From a bacterium (GTDB lineage Bacteria; Armatimonadota; Fimbriimonadia; Fimbriimonadales; Fimbriimonadaceae), in assembly GCA_027485645.1 (NCBI GenBank), contig JAIXQR010000001.1, forward strand, positions 675,632-739,631: DNA of 64,000 nucleotides. The letters are read 5' to 3'. Both the position numbers and the translations under genes were made by a program. Position 1 is the first letter of the stretch. Every line of letters starts with the position of its first letter. Of the stretch, positions 3,014 through 31,346 are shown one piece after another. The notes beneath the pieces are model-generated. The model searched no databases and was not told where the DNA came from. It was given only the letters and a program-made list of their open reading frames with translations.

Positions 3014-4122
3014 CCAGTCTTGTTCCGGCGCGAGGCGGCGTCTTGGAGCATGATGAACTCGCTCAGGTTCTCTTGAGTGAGCATGCCGACGAGGTCATCG
3101 CCTTCCATGACGAGGACCGGGTGTCTTCCGGCGGCGGCGAACTGTTCCGCGGCCCATTCGAGGTCGTCATCGGGGCGGCAGCGGTAGGCGTTTCGGTTCA
3201 TTCGACCGGCGACGTAGGCGTGCGGGCCATCCTCGGTGAGGCCGATAGAGAGTTCATTTCGCTCAAGGATGCCGAGCACTTCGCTGCCTGAAATCACGGG
3301 GAAGTCTGTTTGGCTACCAGCGATGAGCAGTTCGCTCGCTTCTTGTAGGGTGGTACCGTGCGACAAGGTCGCGAAGTTTCGCATCATCGCATCGCGCACC
3401 TTTCGGCCCGCGAGCAGGGAGCGGGTGACGGTAGAGGTCAACTCCTGTCCGGCGACAAGGAAGACGAAGAAGGCGATGAGCATCAGCACGACTTGGCTCG
3501 TGACAATGCCAACGATGCCGAGAATGATGGCCACGACTTGACCCACGCCAGCGGCGATTCGCGTTGCCCGCAATTCACCTAGTCGCAGCGAGAGCGCAGC
3601 CCGAAGGATTCGACCGCCGTCCATCGGAAAGGCCGGAATCAGGTTGAAAAGCGCCAGCGAGATGTTGGTGAAAAACAGCGCCGGCAGAATTCCGCCGACG
3701 CGGATGTCGGGTGAGAGTTCAAACACCTGCGGCGACAGCCACATGTACAGGTACAGCGCGGCCGCGATGACGACGTTTACGACCGGGCCCATGATGGTTA
3801 CCCAGAGTTCTTGCTTGGCGGTCGGACGGCTTTCTAGCAGAGCCACGCCGCCGATGGGATAGAGCGTGATGTTCGTGGTTTTGATGCCGTACCGCTTCGC
3901 CGTTAGAGCGTGCCCGAACTCGTGCAAGACCACGCAGAAGAAAATGGCAACGACGTAGAGTGGCCATTGCCAGCCGGCCTGTTTCTGGCCGGTCCAGCCG
4001 ATCCAGACCAGGAAAAGCAAGAAGGTGATGTGGAGCCGAACCGGAATTCCGGCTACCACCGCCACGCGAAATGCCCAGGGGCTTTCCGGTCGTTCGCTTT
4101 GCGGCTTTTCCGTTTCTGGCAT
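3010..4122 (-). CDS. Site-2 type M50 metalloprotease with two CBS domains
   Basis: This is a membrane-embedded zinc protease of the S2P/SpoIVFB type, which cuts transmembrane segments. The 370-aa protein has several hydrophobic segments, the zinc motif HEFGH (67-71) and the third-ligand motif PMDGGR (Asp about 168). Two CBS domains follow at about 245-360; they may sense adenylate ligands. The start codon shares one base with the stop of the phytase gene (TGATG), so it is the last gene of the prepilin-phytase operon. Its substrate cannot be told from sequence; membrane-anchored regulators are a possibility. Confidence 0.9.
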   Translation of the reverse strand: MPETEKPQSERPESPWAFRVAVVAGIPVRLHITFLLFLVWIGWTGQKQAGWQWPLYVVAIFFCVVLHEFGHALTAKRYGIKTTNITLYPIGGVALLESRPTAKQELWVTIMGPVVNVVIAAALYLYMWLSPQVFELSPDIRVGGILPALFFTNISLALFNLIPAFPMDGGRILRAALSLRLGELRATRIAAGVGQVVAIILGIVGIVTSQVVLMLIAFFVFLVAGQELTSTVTRSLLAGRKVRDAMMRNFATLSHGTTLQEASELLIAGSQTDFPVISGSEVLGILERNELSIGLTEDGPHAYVAGRMNRNAYRCRPDDDLEWAAEQFAAAGRHPVLVMEGDDLVGMLTQENLSEFIMLQDAASRRNKTG

Positions 4123-5114
4123 CAGTTCTTTAGTTTGAGCGTTCGCGCAACATCACGCCAGCTCAAATAAAGAAAACGCCGATTCTTGCTGTCCATCACC
4201 ACCATTAGGCCATCTGGGAACTTCGGACCGAGGTTGGCGGAGGTGACGGCGATGCCGTCGGTTTCATCTGCGCCGGCCGTGAACTGGCCGAGGCGGGTTC
4301 CAGTGAACGAGGTGACGGTATAAACGCTCCGGTTCTTCAACTGATCCGTAAAGACCGCGAATCGTTTTGCCCCTTTCTCCCACAGGCCGATACCTTCGTG
4401 GTCACCTTTGAAGTCGGTGTTCCAGGCGGGCCGGGCGTCCATGTAGCCGTTTGGACGATCTTGCAGGACGAGCTGGCGATTGCCGTAAGTTTCGTCGCTG
4501 TAGAAGGCGCTGATGCCGTCGACGGAAGTGGCGATCGATTCGATCTCTTTACCACCCCGGAACTGGCCGGTGCGTCCGACGAAGATCGCGTCGATCTTGG
4601 CAGTCGCTGGGTTGACCTTAAGTTGGTATTGCTCCAGGTATGACTCGGTGAGGCCAAGTTTGGGGCTGACGAGGGCATAAAGGTTGCCGGTCGTCTTGGA
4701 CTTCCAGAGGGCGATGCCCATTGGCTCGCCGTAATCGGCGGTGCCTTTCATGGCGACTTCGGTATTGCCGGTGAGATCGGAAAGCGTGCCCTTAGGATCG
4801 ATTTTGTAAATGCGGAGTCGGCCCTGCAGGCGCTCGGTGCAAACGGCGATGTCGAGCCCGTTCCAATTCTGATGGACGTCGACGTTATTCGGTCGATCCA
4901 GCCCAGAAATTTTTTGGACGATTTTGCCGTCGAGGTCAAAAACGTAAAGACCGCCGGTGGGTCGCTTCACCTTGTTCGTGCCAATCACGCGGGACTGGGA
5001 AGGATTAGACTTGTTGACCCAAATGGCTGGATCATCGGCATCGTCGGGTACCGGCTGGGTGGCCAGCGTTGGAGGGATGAAAGGGATGGAGGCGACGAGC
5101 AGAACGTGGATCAT
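4122..5114 (-). CDS. Secreted beta-propeller phytase (3-phytase family)
   Basis: This enzyme removes phosphate from phytate outside the cytoplasm. The 330-aa protein begins with a hydrophobic signal peptide (residues 1-19). It carries the two hallmark beta-propeller phytase motifs, DDADDPAIW (24-32) and NNVDV (76-80), followed by propeller repeats with conserved acidic residues such as GKEIESIA and KGDHEGIGLW. The frame extends upstream for 171 codons with no family similarity; the start chosen here gives the signal peptide. It lies 67 bp downstream of a prepilin gene and is coupled to the M50 protease. A phosphate-scavenging role fits the Pho-like boxes in this cluster. Confidence 0.88.
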   Translation of the reverse strand: MIHVLLVASIPFIPPTLATQPVPDDADDPAIWVNKSNPSQSRVIGTNKVKRPTGGLYVFDLDGKIVQKISGLDRPNNVDVHQNWNGLDIAVCTERLQGRLRIYKIDPKGTLSDLTGNTEVAMKGTADYGEPMGIALWKSKTTGNLYALVSPKLGLTESYLEQYQLKVNPATAKIDAIFVGRTGQFRGGKEIESIATSVDGISAFYSDETYGNRQLVLQDRPNGYMDARPAWNTDFKGDHEGIGLWEKGAKRFAVFTDQLKNRSVYTVTSFTGTRLGQFTAGADETDGIAVTSANLGPKFPDGLMVVMDSKNRRFLYLSWRDVARTLKLKN

Positions 5115-5130
5115 GTCGGTGTAGACGAAG

Positions 5131-5162
5131 CGATGGCTACCGGGTGTACCCGGTAGCCATCG
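5131..5162 (-). terminator. Perfect 14-bp hairpin between prepilin and phytase
   Basis: A perfect inverted repeat has 14-bp arms (5131-5144 and 5149-5162) and a 4-nt loop. It sits 19 bp after the prepilin stop and 16 bp before the phytase start. No T-run follows on the minus strand, so it may act as an attenuator or 3'-end stabiliser for an abundant prepilin mRNA rather than a full terminator. Confidence 0.7.
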
Positions 5163-5181
5163 CGTGAATGTGAGCTTAAGC

Positions 5182-6165
5182 TCAGTTGACTGGGAAGCCA
5201 GTCGCTGGGTCGACAACAACGCTGCCGCCGAGCGAGTAGGCCTGCTTGCCCCAAGCGTAGTTGCGGACATCGAAGGTCTGCAGGGTGTTTCGGAACTTCG
5301 CGGACGAGTCTGCGAAGACGTAGTTGTTGCCCTGGTCGAATCGGCCACCGTTCGTGTAGCGAAGGGTGTGGGTTGCGCCGCCGTTGGTGGTTCGGAGTTC
5401 GCAGTCGAAGACCTGACCGACGGTGCCCTTTCCTGCCCACTTTCCGGTGGCGGTGTTTGCGCCGCTAACGGTGAGAGCTTCGAGTGGAAGATCGGCCGCG
5501 GAAGGGAGCGAAGAACCGCTGAGGTCTCGCTGTCCGCTTCGTCCGATACCGAAAGCTGGTCGGTAGCTTCGGAACTCGCCGCCGGCAGTGGTCTGCATGC
5601 AGAACTGCTTTTCGGTTGCTGGTGCAACGAGGATGGTCGAGCTTACGCCGTCGATTGCGGTTGCGCTAACAACGTTCGCGGTGTCGCTGTCCTGTCGCTT
5701 TCGACCGATGATGGCCTGGTTTGCAACGTAGGAAATTCGTCCGACCTGGAGGGTGTAGACGCCAGCCTGGTAGCCCTGCTGAACGCAGCCGTTACCCTGG
5801 ATTCCTGGCTTGCCGAAACCTCGGTTGTTGTTGGCTTCGTTGAAGCATCCTGGTGCCCATCCACCGATCGAGTCAGCTGGGGAAACGAAGAGCTGCTCGC
5901 TCTTGATGTATGGAAGGACCATCCAGCTCCAGTGAACTTCGTTTGCAGATGAGTTGTTTTCGCGGTGGTTGCTTGGCGGGAACATATCGTCCGTATCAGC
6001 GATGTAAAGCTGAAGTCCGAGGCCGATTTGCTTGGTGTTGCTGAGGTCAGCGGTCTTCTTAGCGGCCTGCTTAGCCTGAGCAAAAACAGGGAATAGGATA
6101 GCGGCAAGAATTGCGATGATTGCAATAACAACCAGAAGTTCGATTAGGGTAAATGCCTTTTTCAT
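5182..6165 (-). CDS. Type IV/T2SS-like prepilin with N-terminal methylation motif
   Basis: This is a major pilin/pseudopilin-type protein of 327 aa. The class III leader is very short (MKKA|FTLIEL), with Ala rather than Gly before the cleavage site, then the hydrophobic alpha1-N helix VVIAIIAILAAILFPVFAQAK. The C-terminus keeps the DG-type motif region (NNYVFADSSAKF) of the DUF1559-like family common in Planctomycetes and Armatimonadota. The ATG at 6165 is chosen over an upstream in-frame start because AGGTGAG lies just before it and the leader then fits. A Pho-like box lies about 50 bp upstream, and the gene follows the halogenase. Confidence 0.92.
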   Translation of the reverse strand: MKKAFTLIELLVVIAIIAILAAILFPVFAQAKQAAKKTADLSNTKQIGLGLQLYIADTDDMFPPSNHRENNSSANEVHWSWMVLPYIKSEQLFVSPADSIGGWAPGCFNEANNNRGFGKPGIQGNGCVQQGYQAGVYTLQVGRISYVANQAIIGRKRQDSDTANVVSATAIDGVSSTILVAPATEKQFCMQTTAGGEFRSYRPAFGIGRSGQRDLSGSSLPSAADLPLEALTVSGANTATGKWAGKGTVGQVFDCELRTTNGGATHTLRYTNGGRFDQGNNYVFADSSAKFRNTLQTFDVRNYAWGKQAYSLGGSVVVDPATGFPVN

Positions 6166-6195: not shown

Positions 6196-6230
6196 AGAGT
6201 GTTCCTTTGCCACGTTAAGCATATGTTAAG
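6196..6230 (-). promoter_or_regulatory. Pho-like box upstream of the prepilin gene
   Basis: On the minus strand CTTAACAT and CTTAACGT start exactly 11 bp apart (6230-6223 and 6219-6212). A weak -10 (CACTCT, 6201-6196) follows after 10 bp. The first repeat contains the TAA stop of the halogenase gene, so the operator overlaps the end of the upstream coding region. Confidence 0.6.
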
Positions 6231-7926
6231 AAATCATCATTTCTTCTAGGCGGTCTTGATTCTGATGAATCACCTCTGACTGATGCGGAGTAGCGATGGG
6301 GAAGTTTGGGTGTCCCGATTGAGATCGGCCGAGCACCCATCCAGAAACGACCATCGCCTCTAGAACTTCTAGCCCGTTTGTGTAGGTCGCTGGGGATGGG
6401 CAGGCGCTAGCAAGGTAGCCACGGACTTCCTCGGCGGTCCGTTCTGATTGCAGAAATTCGGCTAGTCGCTGGTACACGCCAACCAGCGGCAAGACTTGGT
6501 CTCCGCGTCGAAGGGTTTGCTTGACCAAGATTTGACCGTTGTGAAAGGCCGGCACGGTTTCTATTTCGGCGCCACTGAGGTCTGCCTTGAAGCGGTTGTA
6601 CTTCGAGAGTTCCCAGGTCGCTTCTCCGCCGCCGAAGAACTGCGTTAGCTGCTTGGTCGCGCCGAGGGCGAAGGTGGCGACCCGGGCGACGCGCCAGTCG
6701 TCGTTGATAAATCCGCCGGTGCCAAGCCACTGAAACGCTTCATTTGGTGAGAGTTCTAGACCCGCGTCCTTTGCGATTTCAGAAACGAACTCTTTGAGTT
6801 CGGAGAAGTGTCCGTTGGCGGTGTACCAGTAGTCAGCGAAACGAATATGCTGCCGGATCCGCTTTTGCTGAGTCACTTCATAGTGAGATGCTAGCCACGA
6901 CGGGTCGTTACCACCCTTGAGATGATCGACTAGGATGTACGCGAGTTCGCGTGCGCCGGTGTGAGTGAGGGTGAGCCCGGCGGCGAGAATGGGGTCGGCG
7001 AATCCTGCCGCCTCGCCGACGAGGTACCAATTTGGACCGGCCATTTGGTTTGCGACGAAGGACCAGTCTTTCGTTCCGTGAACCGGACCTTGCTGAGTGG
7101 CTTGACGAAGGAGCTTCGAGATAAGGGCTTCGCTTTGCACCGCTTCAAGATAGATTTCCTCGGGTCGGAGCTTCTTGTTTTTGTAAACTTCGGCCGGCAT
7201 GACCAGCCCGACGCTGGCGCGGGTCGCAGAAATTGGGATGAACCAAATCCAGCCGTAGCCGAGGCTCATCACATTAACGCGAGTCCCGCCTTTGCCTAGG
7301 GTTACCGCCCACTCGGCGTCGTCCCAGTAAGACCAGAACGCGACGTTCTTGAGGCGGCTTGGTTCGTCGACCGTGACGCCGAGAGCCCTTCGCAAGATGG
7401 CTGAGTTACCACTGCCATCGACATAGTATTTCGCGGTGACTTCGCCCTCGGGAGTCATCAGGCCATTGATCACGCCGTCTTGGTGACGAACCTGAGTGAC
7501 GCCGGTGTTTTCTCGCACTTCACAACCGCACTCCCGGGCGTGGTCGAGGAGGATCTTGTCGTAGATGGAGCGCTCTACTTGGAACGCAGTCTTGCGGCGT
7601 TCACCTTCGTACTTTGCCGGACGCTCGCTTCCGACGAAGTCTTTACCGGGGAGAAACTCGAAATCCCAAAGGTCGTCGGTCTGGCCCCATCGGTAGGTGG
7701 CTCCAATTTTGATCGGGAAGTTGGCCGCTTCGACTTTCTCCCAGACGCCCATCTCTTCGAGGATGCTTCCGATAAGCGGCAACTGGCTCTCGCCGACATG
7801 CTCACGGGGAAACTGTTCGCGTTCTAATATAACAACTGATGCATTTGGGGCGTACTTTTTGATTAAAGTACCGAGGGTACTCCCGGCAGGTCCGCCCCCG
7901 ATAATCGCGACATCAAAGTTATGCAT
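6226..7926 (-). CDS. Flavin-dependent halogenase (tryptophan-halogenase-like)
   Basis: This FAD-binding enzyme probably oxidises chloride or bromide to halogenate an organic substrate, with a partner flavin reductase elsewhere. The 566-aa protein has the N-terminal dinucleotide fold GGGPAGS (10-15), the motif FPREHVGESQLP (39-50), a candidate catalytic lysine at about 73, the diagnostic WxWxIP motif (W226-P231) and the second FAD motif GEAAGFADP (304-312). The C-terminal 200 residues are not recognised; carrier-protein-type halogenases also have such tails. It is 15 nt after the lipoprotein gene, so likely in one operon under the Pho-like box. A non-halogenating oxygenase of the same fold is the main alternative. 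No biosynthetic cluster is adjacent. Confidence 0.8.
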   Translation of the reverse strand: MHNFDVAIIGGGPAGSTLGTLIKKYAPNASVVILEREQFPREHVGESQLPLIGSILEEMGVWEKVEAANFPIKIGATYRWGQTDDLWDFEFLPGKDFVGSERPAKYEGERRKTAFQVERSIYDKILLDHARECGCEVRENTGVTQVRHQDGVINGLMTPEGEVTAKYYVDGSGNSAILRRALGVTVDEPSRLKNVAFWSYWDDAEWAVTLGKGGTRVNVMSLGYGWIWFIPISATRASVGLVMPAEVYKNKKLRPEEIYLEAVQSEALISKLLRQATQQGPVHGTKDWSFVANQMAGPNWYLVGEAAGFADPILAAGLTLTHTGARELAYILVDHLKGGNDPSWLASHYEVTQQKRIRQHIRFADYWYTANGHFSELKEFVSEIAKDAGLELSPNEAFQWLGTGGFINDDWRVARVATFALGATKQLTQFFGGGEATWELSKYNRFKADLSGAEIETVPAFHNGQILVKQTLRRGDQVLPLVGVYQRLAEFLQSERTAEEVRGYLASACPSPATYTNGLEVLEAMVVSGWVLGRSQSGHPNFPIATPHQSEVIHQNQDRLEEMMIS

Positions 7927-7941
7927 TTGTTAAGACTTCGA

Positions 7942-8298
7942 TCACTGCATCGTGAACGTGCCGGTGCGACCATCTTGGAAGGTGATCTCCAAATTGAGGC
8001 CATCACGCTTGTAGGTCCAAATCTGCTGCTGACCGTTGAGATCAACTGTAATCTGGCTCGCCTTCTCATCCATCGTGTACGTGCCCGATTTTGCGCCGGT
8101 CGAATCGGTGAAAGTCATCTCGTTTCCAGCATCAAACTGAACCTGCATGCCTTCGCTACGTCCGGTTCCGCTGAAAAGTCCCCATGGGGTGCTCGTCATC
8201 TCTCGGGTTTGCTCGGAACTCACTGGGGCGGAGGACTCTCCGCAACCAACTATTACAAAAGCCGATAGAATAAGAACCGCACACAGAACTCGTCGCAT
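7942..8298 (-). CDS. Small lipoprotein, first gene of the halogenase operon
   Basis: The 118-aa protein has a lipoprotein signal peptide ending in the lipobox VIVGC (Cys19), so it is predicted to be lipid-anchored. The mature part is a small beta-rich domain with the recurring pattern TFTDSTGAKSGTYTM and WTYKRDGLNLEITF, which resembles lipocalin-like or META-like stress lipoproteins, but I cannot assign a family. It precedes the halogenase by 15 nt. A Pho-like box and a -10 ending 6 nt before the ATG indicate leaderless, possibly phosphate-responsive expression. Confidence 0.75.
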   Translation of the reverse strand: MRRVLCAVLILSAFVIVGCGESSAPVSSEQTREMTSTPWGLFSGTGRSEGMQVQFDAGNEMTFTDSTGAKSGTYTMDEKASQITVDLNGQQQIWTYKRDGLNLEITFQDGRTGTFTMQ

Positions 8299-8339
8299 GG
8301 GTTAAGTAAGCCGCCTTTGACGGTTAACATGCTGTTAAG
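8299..8339 (-). promoter_or_regulatory. Pho-like box and leaderless promoter of the lipoprotein-halogenase operon
   Basis: On the minus strand CTTAACAG (8339-8332) and GTTAACCG (8328-8321) start 11 bp apart. Exactly 10 bp later comes CTTACT (8310-8305) as the -10, then 6 nt to the ATG. Another CTTAAC starts at 8306, still on the 11-bp grid. No canonical -35 is present, as expected for a PhoB-type activated promoter. Confidence 0.62.
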
Positions 8340-8347
8340 GTTCATTT

Positions 8348-8434
8348 GTTATGAACGATTTAACGAAAACTTAACCCTCGCTTAACAACGTCGGTGCCTA
8401 TGCTAGGCAGTCCGGGTAGCCGGAGGAGACTATT
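8348..8434 (+). promoter_or_regulatory. Pho-like box array and promoter of the second prepilin gene
   Basis: Four repeats start at 8348 (GTTATG, degenerate), 8359 (TTTAAC), 8370 (CTTAAC) and 8381 (CTTAAC), each exactly 11 bp apart. The last 8-mer ends at 8388, and after 10 bp comes TATGCT (8399-8404) as the -10. The 5' leader of about 25 nt carries GGAGGA (8422-8427), a strong ribosome-binding site for the GTG at 8435. Confidence 0.68.
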
Positions 8435-9337
8435 GTGCACAAGAAGCAGGCCTTTACTTTAATTGAACTTCTCGTCGTTATCGCGATTATTGCGATTCTC
8501 GCCGCCATCCTATTCCCAGTTTTCGCTCAGGCAAAGTCTGCGGCAAAGAAGACGGTTTCTCTCAGCAACCAGAAGCAGATCGGCACCGCGGTCATTCTTT
8601 ACAGCTCGGACTACGATGACATGCTCCCAGAAACCGGTTGGATCGGACCATGTTCCGCTCCTGGCGGCACCGCTGGTTTGAACGACGAGTTCTCCGGCGT
8701 TCAGAGCTTCCTTACCGGCATCTTCCCATACAGCAAGAACTGGCAGATGCTCGCTTGTCCAGCCGACGCGGACAAGGGCGTTTTCGGTAAGCCAGGCGAA
8801 GGCTGCTTCGAAAAGATGTTCCTCGCTGCCGGCGTCCCAGGCGCCTACGTTGGCATGGCCGACGTGAACAACGGTCTCGAGTTCGTTAAGGTTCTGCCTG
8901 CATCCTACGCTGGCAACTACCTGCTCATGCCAGGCTACCGACGCGTTAGCGAAGGTGCGTGGACCGGTGATCGAGGCCGAAACCTCAGTCAGATCGCGAC
9001 TCCAGCCAACATGTTCTACTCGACCGACGTAGGTTCGACCCGAGTTAACGGTCTCAACTTCTCCGGTTGGTACACCGTCCCAGGTTATGGCAACCTCGGA
9101 AACGGAACCGGTCGATGGGAGCGAGGACAGCGACACACGGGCGGCCGAAACTGGTCGTTCGCAGATGGTCACGCAAAGTACCAGAAGGAACTGGATTACC
9201 GAACCAGCACCGGCACGGCTAAGTCGATCCGACAGCTCGTTTGGGAATACCAGCAGGCCGGAATCTTCACCTACTGGGAAACGGAAACCAAAGACTACTG
9301 CGGCTTCCCAACCAAAGAAGCCGGCTGCGACCGATAA
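8435..9337 (+). CDS. Type IV/T2SS-like prepilin, probably highly expressed
   Basis: This 300-aa prepilin has a leader (MHKKQA|FTLIEL) and alpha1 helix nearly identical to the prepilin at 5182-6165, then a globular part with the conserved KQIG segment and a C-terminal WSFADGHAKY motif of the DUF1559/H-X9-DG type. It is predicted to be cut and methylated by a prepilin peptidase and assembled in the envelope. The start is GTG with GGAGGA upstream. Ten of its twelve prolines use CCA, unlike housekeeping genes here, which suggests very high expression. It is controlled by four 11-bp-spaced Pho-like repeats and followed by a strong hairpin terminator. Confidence 0.93.
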   Translation: MHKKQAFTLIELLVVIAIIAILAAILFPVFAQAKSAAKKTVSLSNQKQIGTAVILYSSDYDDMLPETGWIGPCSAPGGTAGLNDEFSGVQSFLTGIFPYSKNWQMLACPADADKGVFGKPGEGCFEKMFLAAGVPGAYVGMADVNNGLEFVKVLPASYAGNYLLMPGYRRVSEGAWTGDRGRNLSQIATPANMFYSTDVGSTRVNGLNFSGWYTVPGYGNLGNGTGRWERGQRHTGGRNWSFADGHAKYQKELDYRTSTGTAKSIRQLVWEYQQAGIFTYWETETKDYCGFPTKEAGCDR

Positions 9338-9353
9338 GGTCTACGCCTAACTT

Positions 9354-9385
9354 GGGCCCATTCCGAAAGGAATGGGCCCGTTTCT
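9354..9385 (+). terminator. Hairpin terminator after the prepilin gene
   Basis: A perfect 11-bp stem (9354-9364 with 9369-9379) is closed by a GAAA tetraloop and followed by GTTTCTC. It lies 16 bp after the prepilin stop. The short T-run may allow partial read-through into the downstream genes. Confidence 0.8.
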
Positions 9386-9419: not shown

Positions 9420-10283
9420 ATGCTTAAAAAGTTCTTACCTGCCATCGCATTCGTCCTCCTGGCCGTCGCCGGATACCTCTGGGCCTCCCGGGGAGGAGAA
9501 ATTCTCAAGTCCAACGAGTCTCCGGACCAAAAGTACGTTGACGCAACGGTGGGGGCGGCATTCAAGGGGGTTGCAGAAACGGCAAGCATCGAACCTGCAC
9601 AGGCACGTGAGTTCCTAAAGAAAGCCGAAGAAGCTAAGCCAGAGAACGGATTTACGGATTACCTTCGGGCTTCGGTTGCCGCAAAGGAAGGCGACACCGC
9701 CGCGGCCACGAAGTCATTGGTTGATGGGAATGCGAAGAAAGACGTGATTCACTACATTCCCGAACTGCCGGCGTACGAGAACGAATCGAGTCTGAGCGTG
9801 CTACGCGCTCTGTCGAATCACGGCGAGAAGCTCGCCACAGAAAAGGGCCCGGAGGCAGGAGAGTATTTTGCCGCGCTCCGAACCGCCAGCTACCGAATCA
9901 TCGGCCTTGAACCGATTACGACGCTGAGCGTGGCATCGGGAGTGTCTTTGATCAACCAGGTCTACACCGATGGCATCAAGCATTACTCCAAAACCGCACC
10001 AGATACGGCGAAGGCTTGGGAGAAAGATCAGGCGGTCTTCAAGACTTGGAGCAAGGCTTACCGGGAAAAGCAAAGCACCCAGCTTGGCAACGTCATCGGC
10101 GAGGTTGGAAAAGAAGCTGGGCTGAGCAAAGCCGAGATCGAAGATGTCGCCATCAAGAAACCGCTCGCGGATGAAGCGAAGCAAGCCAAAGTGGACGAGC
10201 TGATGGCTCAAGTGGTTGTGAAGGAGCAAAAGATGCTCCGCGAGATCGTTGGCACTCTTCCGAAGATTGACGCCAGCAAGTGA
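9420..10283 (+). CDS. Hypothetical membrane-anchored helical protein
   Basis: The 287-aa protein has an N-terminal signal anchor (LPAIAFVLLAVAGYLWA) followed by a largely alpha-helical, lysine- and glutamate-rich domain. The stretch around EFLKKAEEAKPENGFTDYLRA resembles a TPR-like helical pair, but no family is recognised. The ATG at 9420 is preferred over an in-frame start 48 nt upstream because that one lies inside the terminator hairpin. It is separated by only 10 nt from the phosphoesterase gene, so the two probably form an operon. A role in supporting or tethering the phosphoesterase is only a guess. Confidence 0.7.
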   Translation: MLKKFLPAIAFVLLAVAGYLWASRGGEILKSNESPDQKYVDATVGAAFKGVAETASIEPAQAREFLKKAEEAKPENGFTDYLRASVAAKEGDTAAATKSLVDGNAKKDVIHYIPELPAYENESSLSVLRALSNHGEKLATEKGPEAGEYFAALRTASYRIIGLEPITTLSVASGVSLINQVYTDGIKHYSKTAPDTAKAWEKDQAVFKTWSKAYREKQSTQLGNVIGEVGKEAGLSKAEIEDVAIKKPLADEAKQAKVDELMAQVVVKEQKMLREIVGTLPKIDASK

Positions 10284-10293
10284 GAAACAAAAG

Positions 10294-12669
10294 ATGAACA
10301 AGAAGCTATCCCTTCTCGCCGGAATTGCCGTTGTTGCCTCGGCCGTAGCCTTCACCGCGTTCCAGCCAAAAATCGCGACTTACTTGCCTTCCGGTTGGCG
10401 CATTTCTCCGGCTGGGCCAAGCGAGACCATTGGCGATCTCGCGGCTGGCGGCGTTACGAGTCCGAACGGAAAATGGATTGCCTTCGTTTCGGCCGGACAA
10501 GGGAATCACCAGCTATTCGTAGTTGATGCTAAGACTGGCAAAGTCGCGAAGAAGTTGAGCCTTGGCCGAGCTTGGATTGGCATGGCTTGGATGGCCGACT
10601 CAACCAAGCTGGTCGTGAGCGGTGGGACGGGCAATAACTTCCACATCGTATCCGTCGCGCTGGATGGCGAACTTAAGCTGGAAAAGACGATCCCGGTTAC
10701 CGAGATCAAGGGCAACACCGGCTGGCTCGCTGGTTTGCAGCTAACCGCCGATGAGAAGCACGTTGTGCTGGCCCTGGCCGCTGGCGACGAGTTGCGAAAG
10801 ATCGACCTCGAAACCGGTGCGACGGTTGCAAAGCTGGCGTTGCCTGTTGGCTCTTCTCCGTACCAAGTTCGCAGGGTGGGCTACGACATGGTCGTCACGC
10901 TCCAGGGCGCTGAGCGAGCGATTCGAGTTGATGCAACGGACTTTACGATCACCAAGAGTTACGCCACCGGACGTCACCCGAACGACCTTCTGGTGCAGGG
11001 CGAGCGACTGTTTGTTTCGTGCGGAAACGATGACACGGTCGATGTTTTCGACCTCTACACCGGAACCCGGGAAGAGCGAATCAATGTTCGACCTTGGCCG
11101 AACGCACCTGCGGGCTCAACGCCGCACGCTCTGGCGGTGACCGCAGACGGAAAGCGACTTTACGTCGCAAACTCGGACAACAACTGTGTCGGCATTCTCA
11201 ACATCGCCGACCGAGTTGCGACTCGGGTGGAAGGATTTGTACCGACCGGCGCCTATCCGACCGCGTTAGGCGTTCTCGCCGATGGCAAGACGCTCCTTGC
11301 GGCTGCCGGCAAAGGTTTCGGCACTGGTCCTAACGGCGACACGGACAAGATTGATCCGATTGCGCCAAAGGGATATCCGTACATTGTTGTCCTTCTGAAA
11401 GGCTTGCTCACGAAGGTTGACGTTCCGAAGGGAACGGAGCTCGACAAGATGTCGAAGCAAGTTCGCGACCTGTCTCCGTACCGAGAAGGCGTCGTTGAGA
11501 AGCCGCTGACCGCGCCAAAGCCTGGCACCAACCCGATTCCGAGCCGCTTGGGTGACCCATCGCCGATCAAGCACGTTCTGTACATCATCAAGGAAAACCG
11601 AACCTACGACCAGATGTTCGGCGACCTGAAGAAGAACGGGAAGCCATACGGCAACGGCGATCCGAAGCTGACTTTGTTTGGAGAAGACGTCGCTCCGAAC
11701 CACCGCCAACTCGCGATGGACTTTGTTTTACAAGACAACTTTTATGCCAGCGGGGAAGTCTCGGTTGACGGGCACCACTGGAGCAAGGGTGCCTACGTTC
11801 CGGACTTTATGCAGCGCACTTGGCCGCAGCAATACAGCGGAAAGGGAACCCCGCGATTGAGTCTTGAGCTGTCCACGACGCCATCTGGCTTCATTTGGGA
11901 CCATGTTCGGCGCGCCGGAAAGACTTATCGCACGTACTACTATCACACCACCGATCGCCGAAGCGACGCTTGGGCGGCGGCAAGATCGAAGAACGAGCGC
12001 GACTACAAGGCGGTCGACATTTTTATCGACGAGTTTAAGAAATTCGAAGAGCAGAAGAACATGCCGGACTTCATGGTCATGGCGCTGAGCGAAGACCACA
12101 CCAGCGGAACCCGGGCCGGGGCGTTTACGCCGCAGGCATCCGTGGCGAGTAACGACTACGGACTTGGCAAGCTCGTTGAGACGATCTCGAAGAGCAGCTA
12201 CTGGTCGAAGTTTGCGATCTTCGTTCTCGAAGATGACGCGCAGAACGGCCCAGACCATGTGGACGCTCACCGAACCGTGAGCTTGGTGATTTCGCCATAC
12301 ACGCGAAATGCGGGTCACGACAAAACGCACTACACCACGACGTCCACTGTGCGAACGATCGAGCTGATTCTTGGCTTGCAGCCAATGAGCCAGTTCGATG
12401 CGGCCGCGACGCCGATGTATCGCAGCTTCCGAAACACGCCAGACCTAACGCCGTACGTCGCGAAGCGACCGAAGACGGATCTGGATGCGAAGAATCCTCC
12501 GGCGAAAGAAACTCCGCTGTTGGCGGCAATTGACTTCTCGGAGCCAGACCAGCTGACCTTGAGTCAGGAAATCGCGCTCAACGAAGCGATTTGGCGGAGC
12601 GTGAAGGGCAACGTTCCTTATCCCGGCGCGGTTCGCCGGTATGGGATGGACGTTCGAGACGAAGACTGA
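10294..12669 (+). CDS. YncE-like beta-propeller fused to a phosphoesterase domain
   Basis: The 791-aa protein starts with a signal anchor (residues 1-24), then a seven-bladed YncE-like propeller (about 40-390) with blades such as VANSDNNCVGILN, then a phosphoesterase domain (PF04185 type, about 430-770) with the signature HVLYIIKENRTYDQMFGDL and the catalytic-core segments VDGHHWSKGAY and EDDAQNGPDHVDAHR. That family includes phospholipase C and acid phosphatases. It is probably exported and cuts phosphoesters outside the cytoplasm, which fits the Pho-like control of the neighbouring genes. The ATG at 10294 gives the signal anchor; the frame continues upstream only into the previous gene. Confidence 0.85.
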   Translation: MNKKLSLLAGIAVVASAVAFTAFQPKIATYLPSGWRISPAGPSETIGDLAAGGVTSPNGKWIAFVSAGQGNHQLFVVDAKTGKVAKKLSLGRAWIGMAWMADSTKLVVSGGTGNNFHIVSVALDGELKLEKTIPVTEIKGNTGWLAGLQLTADEKHVVLALAAGDELRKIDLETGATVAKLALPVGSSPYQVRRVGYDMVVTLQGAERAIRVDATDFTITKSYATGRHPNDLLVQGERLFVSCGNDDTVDVFDLYTGTREERINVRPWPNAPAGSTPHALAVTADGKRLYVANSDNNCVGILNIADRVATRVEGFVPTGAYPTALGVLADGKTLLAAAGKGFGTGPNGDTDKIDPIAPKGYPYIVVLLKGLLTKVDVPKGTELDKMSKQVRDLSPYREGVVEKPLTAPKPGTNPIPSRLGDPSPIKHVLYIIKENRTYDQMFGDLKKNGKPYGNGDPKLTLFGEDVAPNHRQLAMDFVLQDNFYASGEVSVDGHHWSKGAYVPDFMQRTWPQQYSGKGTPRLSLELSTTPSGFIWDHVRRAGKTYRTYYYHTTDRRSDAWAAARSKNERDYKAVDIFIDEFKKFEEQKNMPDFMVMALSEDHTSGTRAGAFTPQASVASNDYGLGKLVETISKSSYWSKFAIFVLEDDAQNGPDHVDAHRTVSLVISPYTRNAGHDKTHYTTTSTVRTIELILGLQPMSQFDAAATPMYRSFRNTPDLTPYVAKRPKTDLDAKNPPAKETPLLAAIDFSEPDQLTLSQEIALNEAIWRSVKGNVPYPGAVRRYGMDVRDED

Positions 12670-29776: not shown

Positions 29777-31306
29777 TTAACCGTGATGGCAAGTGCAATC
29801 TTCATGAACGGCATACATATCAAGCCATCCCTGATCCAGACTGACCTTCATCTTTTCGTAATACCCTTGCGCCGTGCCGTAATCCATGGTCGGGTTCTTG
29901 TGCTTGATGCCCTTTGCCGCAAGCATCAAGTCGAAGAACTCCACGTTGCGGGTGAGGCCCTTGATCATTTCACTTCCTGGTCCGAGAGCGGTCACCATCA
30001 CGTGCTCGGCGGTGTGGTTACCGCTCGTCCACGTCACGGCCGTGTGGTTGCCCAGAATGTTCGCCATGGTCATTCCGCTAGCTTTCAGGAAGCCGCTGAT
30101 GTTGAAGGGCCCTTGTCCCTTTTGTCCCGCTACGATGGCCGCCGCTTCTGCCGCGCTGAGTTCCAATCCGAGATCGGCCTTGACGATGTCTCGAACTGAA
30201 TCTGCGGTCGGGCTGGCGCCGAACTTTCGAGCCAGAACTTCGTAGCTCGCCTTCATTCCGTTCACGGTCAGGATGCCCTTGTTCGAGTCCGTGTACTCCT
30301 CACCCATGCCGTTCAGCGATGGTCCGCCGGTGGCGTGGTCTGCCGTGATGATGACGAGGGTTTCTTTGTCCTTGAGCGCGAACTCGACCGCAACCTTAAC
30401 CGCTTCTTCGAATGCGATCTGATCGTAAACCAGGGAAGCCAAGTCGTTCGCGTGGCCGGCGTGGTCAACCTTTCCGCCTTCAACCTGAAGCAGGAATCCG
30501 TTCTTGCTATCCTTCAAGTTGTCGATCGCATGCTTGGTCATTTCGGCCAAGGTCGGGACGGTCTTCTGAAGCTCTGGACTGTTGTTTCGGTCAACCGAGA
30601 ACGGCAGGTGGCTGTCCGAGAAGATTCCGAGAACCTTCTTGCTCTTCGTCGCCATCAAGGCTTCTCGGTTCTTGACGACCGTGTAGCCCGCCTTTTCGAA
30701 CTCTGGGTACATATCGCGCTTGTCTTTTCGCTTGTCGCCCGCGAAGTGGCGGTTGCCTCCGCCCATGAGCACATCAACGCCAGACACGAGGTACTTCTCG
30801 GCAATGATCGGCTCAAGGTCGCGGCTGACAATGCTGACGGCAAACCCGGCGGGGGTTGCGTGGGTAATTGTCGTGGTTGTGACGAGACCGGTTCGGACGC
30901 CCTTTTCGTGCATCAGCGTCGTCAGAGTCTTCAACGCGGTCAGATCGGGATACATGTTGATCATCCCGTTGAAGATTCGCTGCCCGCTACCCCAAGTGGA
31001 ACTCGCCGCCGCGGAGTCGGTGACGATGGAGTTGAGCGACCGCGTTGCCTGGAGACCGTTGGTGACGAACTTTTGGTCCATCAGCCAGCCCCAGTAAGAG
31101 GACTTTCCACCGTTGAGCTGAGACAGGACATCCACGATCCCGAGGGTCTGCATCGCCATGCCATCGACGACCAAGAAGATGATGTTCTTGATCTTCGACT
31201 GCTTCGAGCCCATGCCCTGGAGAGAGGCGAACGCGCCTGCTCCCGATGCGATGCCGGCGGCACCCGCAATACCCGTACCCAAAAGTGAACGTCGCGACAG
31301 CTTCAT
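29777..31306 (-). CDS. Tat-exported alkaline phosphatase, PhoA family
   Basis: The 509-aa enzyme removes phosphate from monoesters outside the cytoplasm. The N-terminus has a twin-arginine signal (SRRSLLG plus a hydrophobic stretch). The metal-binding FLVVDGM (Asp49), the nucleophile region TDSAAASS (Ser98), VEGGKVDHAGHAND and ITADHATGGP are all present and typical of PhoA. Upstream is a Pho-like box with two TTAAC repeats 11 bp apart, then CAGAAT ending 6 nt before the ATG. This is the best functional anchor for reading the repeats as phosphate-responsive. Confidence 0.95.
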   Translation of the reverse strand: MKLSRRSLLGTGIAGAAGIASGAGAFASLQGMGSKQSKIKNIIFLVVDGMAMQTLGIVDVLSQLNGGKSSYWGWLMDQKFVTNGLQATRSLNSIVTDSAAASSTWGSGQRIFNGMINMYPDLTALKTLTTLMHEKGVRTGLVTTTTITHATPAGFAVSIVSRDLEPIIAEKYLVSGVDVLMGGGNRHFAGDKRKDKRDMYPEFEKAGYTVVKNREALMATKSKKVLGIFSDSHLPFSVDRNNSPELQKTVPTLAEMTKHAIDNLKDSKNGFLLQVEGGKVDHAGHANDLASLVYDQIAFEEAVKVAVEFALKDKETLVIITADHATGGPSLNGMGEEYTDSNKGILTVNGMKASYEVLARKFGASPTADSVRDIVKADLGLELSAAEAAAIVAGQKGQGPFNISGFLKASGMTMANILGNHTAVTWTSGNHTAEHVMVTALGPGSEMIKGLTRNVEFFDLMLAAKGIKHKNPTMDYGTAQGYYEKMKVSLDQGWLDMYAVHEDCTCHHG

Positions 31307-31346
31307 GCTTTCATTCTGCCTGAGATCACGTTAACGTACTGTTAAA
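31307..31346 (-). promoter_or_regulatory. Pho-like box and leaderless promoter of the alkaline phosphatase
   Basis: On the minus strand TTTAACAG (31346-31339) and GTTAACGT (31335-31328) start 11 bp apart. After 9 bp comes CAGAAT (31318-31313) as the -10, then 6 nt to the ATG. No canonical -35 is seen. The arrangement matches the lipoprotein promoter at 8299-8339. Confidence 0.68.

Follow-up and report, generated by a model that had tools for sequence, protein, structure and literature searches.

In this genome, the direct repeats of TTAAC with an 11-bp period are, as judged from their sequence and their place, Pho boxes, and they precede not only classical phosphate-acquisition genes but also a battery of prepilin genes. 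The explanation as a whole, in which PhoB-type operators drive both groups of genes, is in our opinion very probable, on sequence evidence without data on expression or binding. The box and the way it operates have been described before, and a Pho regulon dominated by prepilins is apparently new, as we found it described nowhere. The genome comprises 3.19 Mb in 7 contigs; the whole stretch of DNA that was analysed (64 kb, C3:675632-739631) is called the window hereafter.

The identity of the box was examined by phylogenetic footprinting of pstS in 30 relatives belonging to 17 genera of the family, a box being accepted when at least 9 of its 10 bases matched. The repeat is located just upstream of pstS in 27 of these 30 genomes and in 15 of the 17 genera (shuffle expectation of 0.2). 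Furthermore, 15 of the 27 pstS promoters have a TANNNT element exactly at +26 from the first TTAAC, with only 0 to 1 occurrences at other offsets. In the genome studied here, the box lies before pstS, which is followed by pstC and pstA, and boxes are also carried by phoA and by genes encoding a purple acid phosphatase (L066), two metallophosphatases (L150 and L187) and a PhnZ-like phosphonate oxygenase (L195, TIGR03276 above cut-off). Among the relatives, pstB is boxed in G072 (L297) and phoU in G033 (L314), both genes being named by eye from sequence; G072 has few sites, pstS and pstB among them. PhoU is encoded at C1:228 kb in this genome. The original prediction had proposed a Pho regulon and pointed to pst, phoU and phoB as the genes to look for. 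The box before pstSCA, phoA, the three phosphatases, the PhnZ-like gene and a PhoB-like regulator supports this reading, together with boxed pstB and phoU in relatives.

Other boxed genes have no obvious role in phosphate metabolism, namely those encoding DUF7948 proteins and a WecG-type glycosyltransferase, and one site lies near a gyrase-like gene (C4:427.7 kb). Near-identical boxes (positions 4299 and 6975 of locus L060, i.e. C1:840298 and C1:842974) are found beside two DUF7948 paralogues of about 830 aa. These boxes are 5' of the genes, with the motif on the opposite strand in this genome; boxes beside such genes recur in G008 (L286). Such DUF7948 pairs are possibly phosphate genes of unknown function; with the small lipoprotein and the halogenase module described below, they join the list of probable phosphate genes.

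In Bacillus, PhoP boxes are of the TTAACA type and consist of 11-bp direct repeats upstream of the -10. The boxes found here share with them the TTAAC-type repeats, the 11-bp period and the position upstream of the -10, but the target set differs and the candidate regulator is nearer to RegX3, MtrA and PhoB. The Bacillus type that had been suggested for these repeats is thus right as to the 11-bp TTAAC repeats; however, the closer match is the cyanobacterial SphR box, CTTAACCT, made of 8-bp units and 3-bp linkers (PMC1906773). The likeness to the SphS-SphR (PhoR-PhoB) regulon includes CTTAAC in 8+3 units, the 11-bp period, two or three copies, the TTAA core, which SphR needs for binding (PMC11126600), and the presence of pst and phoA among the targets. 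In contrast, the final CT of the 8-bp unit is not matched here, where the positions after TTAAC are A-rich and loose (base counts at the boxes give C or G before TTAAC and mostly A after it). The system described here also differs in that two units suffice at most promoters, in its many prepilins and in its phylum. A Pho box is now available for a phylum with few cultured members and could help to find candidate phosphate-starvation genes in metagenomes of lakes and soils.

What is unexpected here, and also broad, is the conserved Pho control of the prepilin battery, as inferred from the boxes without expression data. The genome encodes 73 N_methyl prepilins, 71 of which have readable upstream DNA, and 15 of these 71 carry a sense box at most 130 bp upstream (0.3 in shuffles). 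Four of the 15 also read as a box on the other strand, and a single prepilin of the 71 has an antisense box only. As a control, 256 non-prepilin genes from 285 kb of random stretches were considered: one is boxed, and it encodes a phosphatase. Sense boxes are carried by 16 of 65 prepilins, and antisense boxes by none, in the distant congener G008, whose pstS is 48% identical (0.1 expected). Boxed prepilins are also present in other genera, with 3 of 41 in G033 (genus g10) and 1 of 36 in G072 (genus g30), and they resemble boxed prepilins of the genome studied here. Moreover, TANNNT is found at +26 to +28 in 10 of 24 prepilin promoters (shuffle mean 1.1, maximum 6). The N-terminal FTLIE methylation motif of prepilins (PF07963) is present, with Ala and not Gly before the cut. 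The boxed prepilins are spread over several branches of a poorly resolved tree. A single origin was considered and is unsupported, with about 10 tree changes versus 13.3 after shuffling, that is, weak clustering on a tree of poor resolution. In G033, a boxed prepilin is located about 2.3 kb from the boxed pstS (C9:175935-178326). Seven short pilins, five of which are almost identical (128 aa), are arranged in tandem without Pho boxes in locus L339 (C4:95200-99700) and probably constitute the major pilin array.

The Hxc type II secretion system of Pseudomonas is phosphate-regulated and exports an alkaline phosphatase. If our inference holds, both cases have in common that pilin-like subunits and secreted phosphatases are made together under phosphate limitation. 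However, Hxc is one complete gsp-type cluster, whereas here scattered prepilins of the H-X9-DG/DUF1559 type are boxed and the GspG-like gene (C1:534 kb, C1:534003), the sole core secretion gene looked at, has no box. A limited literature search gave no report of Pho-controlled prepilins in Armatimonadota, which is weak evidence of absence, and no precedent was found in it for a Pho regulon with more prepilins than phosphate genes, one that is conserved in the genus and can be traced to the family. Genomes of Armatimonadota and Planctomycetes encode dozens of prepilins with DUF1559 or H-X9-DG features; Rhodopirellula baltica, for instance, has 74 DUF1559 genes (PMC2754498). The literature that we found gives no established function for these prepilins. 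With a conserved Pho box on about a fifth of the prepilins, one can propose what induces them, when they are expressed and which genes are their partners, and their role becomes directly testable.

Within the window, TTAACN6TTAAC with at most one mismatch is found 9 times, against 1.3 +/- 1.3 in shuffles, none of the 100 shuffles reaching 9. The 11-bp-period repeats that had been claimed are real: all of them are seen in the window, at their places, and read CTTAAC-N5-CTTAAC or GTTAAC on the strand of the gene. On the minus strand, the box of prepilin A (CTTAAC-ATATG-CTTAACG, 6213..6230) has its TTAAC half-sites at 6214 and 6225, exactly 11 bp apart, and reads CTTAACATATGCTTAACG. The box of the lipoprotein-halogenase operon (CTTAAC-AGCAT-GTTAAC, 8323..8339, minus strand) has half-sites at 8323 and 8334 with the same exact period and reads CTTAACAGCATGTTAACC on that strand, and a third CTTAAC follows in phase two units (22 bp) on, at 8306-8301 (minus strand). 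The triple box of prepilin B (TTTAAC-GAAAA-CTTAAC-CCTCG-CTTAAC, 8359..8386, plus strand) has three half-sites at 8360, 8371 and 8382, again with an exact 11-bp period, preceded at 8349 (plus strand) by a weak unit, TGAAC. Its putative -10 element, TATGCT (8399..8404, plus strand), is 12 bp past the last TTAAC. Finally, the box of phoA (31330..31346, minus strand, half-sites at 31330 and 31341) precedes a gene encoding an alkaline phosphatase (29777..31306, minus strand; PF00245, E=4e-73), and phoA of the sister genome is boxed too (L283). Another repeat, at 7918-7933, overlaps the start codon of the halogenase gene; 9 of its 10 bases match in this genome, and all 10 match in the sister one. 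It was not counted as a functional box, being within coding sequence and without room for a promoter.

The minus-strand genes are arranged in the order box, lipoprotein, halogenase, box, prepilin A, hairpin and, about 20 bp later, phytase. The first gene of the boxed operon encodes a small lipoprotein (118 aa, 7942..8298) for which no Pfam or NCBIfam family was matched; 15 bp after it comes the gene of the halogenase-like flavin-dependent enzyme (566 aa, 6226..7926; PF04820, E=8e-33). Prepilin A (327 aa, 5182..6165; PF07963 and PF07596) has boxed homologues in other genomes; its AlphaFold model, obtained with eight homologues, has a pLDDT of 30. A perfect 16-bp hairpin without a good T-run (5130..5163) separates it from the phytase gene (4122..5111; PF02333). 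On the plus strand, the triple box is followed by prepilin B (300 aa, 8435..9337; PF07963, H-X9-DG motif TIGR04294 with 20.5 bits for a cut-off of 19), an 11-bp hairpin (9354..9379), a membrane-anchored protein of no known family (9420..10283, start assigned by eye) and a beta-propeller protein with a phosphoesterase domain (10294..12669; PF04185). The sister genome G009 keeps the whole block (contig L324), including the boxes and the hairpin at 5130. There, the spacer ATATG of the prepilin A box is replaced by AGTCA with both half-sites kept, and the triple box of prepilin B has one change, in a spacer.

The lipoprotein, the halogenase, both prepilins, the phytase and the phosphoesterase had been predicted to be induced together by phosphate starvation. 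The boxes support this inference for the lipoprotein and the two prepilins, which are boxed, and for the halogenase by its position in the operon; in contrast, the phytase and phosphoesterase genes have no box of their own, each being located behind a boxed prepilin and a hairpin, and their co-induction would need read-through, which is only inferred. No plain sigma-70 consensus promoter was found behind the hairpins before these two genes. Since neither hairpin has a good T-run and the space behind them could hardly hold a promoter, read-through is presumed to be partial and to yield more prepilin than enzyme. Hence, one side of the divergent promoters at 8.3 kb would provide the lipoprotein, the halogenase, prepilin A (with the second box) and, by read-through of the hairpin, the phytase, and the other side prepilin B and, again by read-through, the phosphoesterase operon.

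The halogenase-like enzyme falls in the PltA/CmlS group (180 bits for PltA and 148 bits for CmlS). It shares with these flavin-dependent halogenases the FAD fold, the active-site Lys in FP[IV]K[IV]G (here FPIKIG) and WxWxIP (here WIWFIP), the Lys and WxWxIP being present in nearly all relatives looked at. However, Ala replaces the Ser of FxxPxxSxG in this enzyme (FADPILAAG, versus FADPILSAG in about half of the relatives), there is no biosynthetic cluster, and the partners are a prepilin and a lipoprotein. The enzyme is also similar to QhpG and LodB, which are protein-modifying flavoenzymes. In relatives, the family has expanded to as many as 16 copies. Four genomes (G017, G021, G022 and G019) have 14 to 16 copies each, often two or three in tandem, and some of these copies are split or contain stops.

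In nearly half of 30 halogenase loci, a prepilin is encoded at most 1.5 kb from the halogenase, sometimes with a small lipoprotein between them. Several loci of relatives include LacI or GntR genes, LacI genes being visible in L212 and L217. The second halogenase copy of this genome belongs to a LacI-prepilin-lipoprotein-halogenase unit (L200, C6:606700-617500), with a divergent unit encoding GntR, a prepilin, a small lipoprotein and a glycosidase-like protein. Close to these units, a glycerophosphodiesterase-like gene precedes a boxed prepilin. As far as gene order can tell, prepilin, lipoprotein and halogenase form a stable module with different inputs.

The halogenase might be a mere passenger, brought into a Pho-driven transcript by a local rearrangement and without any role in phosphate acquisition. 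Near the gene start, a box is absent from all 28 other halogenase loci that were fetched from relatives (the single match, in L206, is coding), and LacI/GntR-type neighbours are found in several loci, including that of the second copy here. Yet the sister genome, whose halogenase is 85% identical, keeps the lipoprotein box, the operon and the prepilin A box, so the arrangement survived this divergence; moreover, the recurrence of the module suggests that its genes work together whatever the inducer. The passenger explanation remains a serious contender that we consider slightly less probable than its opposite. The membership of the halogenase in the Pho set, a novelty of the original prediction, is upheld by operon position here and in one sister genome, but not by any box in other relatives. 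The boxless modules of these relatives, several with LacI/GntR, indicate that its Pho control is a recent and local recruitment.

The function of the products is inferred more weakly still. The prepilins may become part of a type II/type IV-like filament by which phosphatases are exported, displayed or fed with substrate, and the halogenase-like enzyme may modify a substrate or a protein of its module. A wider scheme is conceivable, in which the numerous prepilins of these bacteria are interchangeable, nutrient-specific parts of a common machine. The regulator of a given nutrient, acting through Pho boxes for phosphate and being LacI/GntR for sugars, would switch on each prepilin together with a small lipoprotein and an enzyme of its own, and the prepilin would plug into a common type II/type IV-like machine for capture or export related to that nutrient. 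The halogenase-like flavoenzyme would modify either the prepilin or its cargo. We regard this scheme as speculative and rather unlikely in its entirety.

Only three full OmpR-type regulators are encoded by the genome. Two of them accompany efflux- or metal-type kinases; the third is an orphan at C3:648.7 kb (C3:648691); a box lies 88 bp before its predicted start, and no kinase is encoded beside it (neighbourhood only). Its DNA-binding domain is matched best by RegX3 and E. coli PhoB, and its recognition helix is RTVDVHIRWLR versus RTVDVHIRRLR in PhoB. The protein remains under the cut-off of the NCBIfam PhoB model and has an equal score for MtrA. This putative regulator, the only PhoB/RegX3-like one of the genome, is the candidate for binding the box, as inferred without binding data. 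When phosphate is scarce, it would bind two or three CTTAAC units head-to-tail, 11 bp apart, and so cover the -35 region, with the TANNNT -10 box some 10 bp further downstream. RNA polymerase would then be recruited to the classical phosphate-acquisition genes and, unusually, to the conserved prepilin battery. Binding by this protein, induction at low phosphate and read-through to the phytase and phosphoesterase are inferences.

The equal scores of the candidate for MtrA and PhoB leave room for another regulator type, i.e. an OmpR-type, MtrA-like regulator of the envelope or pili that would bind the repeats and govern a surface regulon including pst and phosphatases, without responding to phosphate. 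The boxed prepilins, which outnumber the boxed phosphate genes in this genome, would fit such a regulon. However, pstS is boxed in the great majority of relatives (27/30), pstB, phoU, phoA, several phosphatases and the PhnZ-like gene are boxed as well, and G072, with its few sites, still boxes pstS and pstB. Furthermore, the motif equals the SphR phosphate box (PMC1906773), and the DNA-binding domain is nearest to RegX3 and PhoB. We hold a surface regulon blind to phosphate to be very improbable, and retain the phosphate-responsive PhoB-type operators.

The whole genome was also searched for TTAACN{0,30}TTAAC, which gave 59 exact matches. The 11-bp period accounts for 17 of them; the next commonest periods have 4 each. 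Over all other periods from 5 to 35 bp, the mean is 1.3 and the maximum 4, and the harmonic, at 22 bp, gives 4 matches. All sites with at most one mismatch were placed on the gene map and merged to 81 places. Gene calls outside the window were automatic, the analysis used stretches around sites, prepilins and random controls, and four sites that had been called coding were corrected by hand, mostly because the start chosen by the caller preceded the prepilin motif. At one mismatch, raw counts show no excess in the genome, with 97 for the motif and 96 for the reversed control pattern. Chance thus accounts for roughly one third of the degenerate sites, and what carries the signal is the spacing, the intergenic position, the orientation and the nature of the gene downstream. 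Of the 81 places, 29 are coding and 52 are intergenic, for 9.2% of intergenic DNA expected (binomial p about 9e-34), and 33 are in sense orientation at most 110 bp from a start. Among the exact-match places, 12 of 15 are intergenic and 10 of 15 are in sense orientation within the same distance. A motif just as common within coding sequence as in front of phosphate genes would have refuted the Pho boxes, and this is not what the 12/15 and 52/81 intergenic places indicate. Chance TTAAC words of AT-rich promoter DNA, which could be invoked since intergenic DNA is rich in TTAAC and one-mismatch matches are no more frequent than the reversed control, are already refuted as the source of the window repeats by spacing, strand, position, -10 geometry and the family-wide conservation at pstS.
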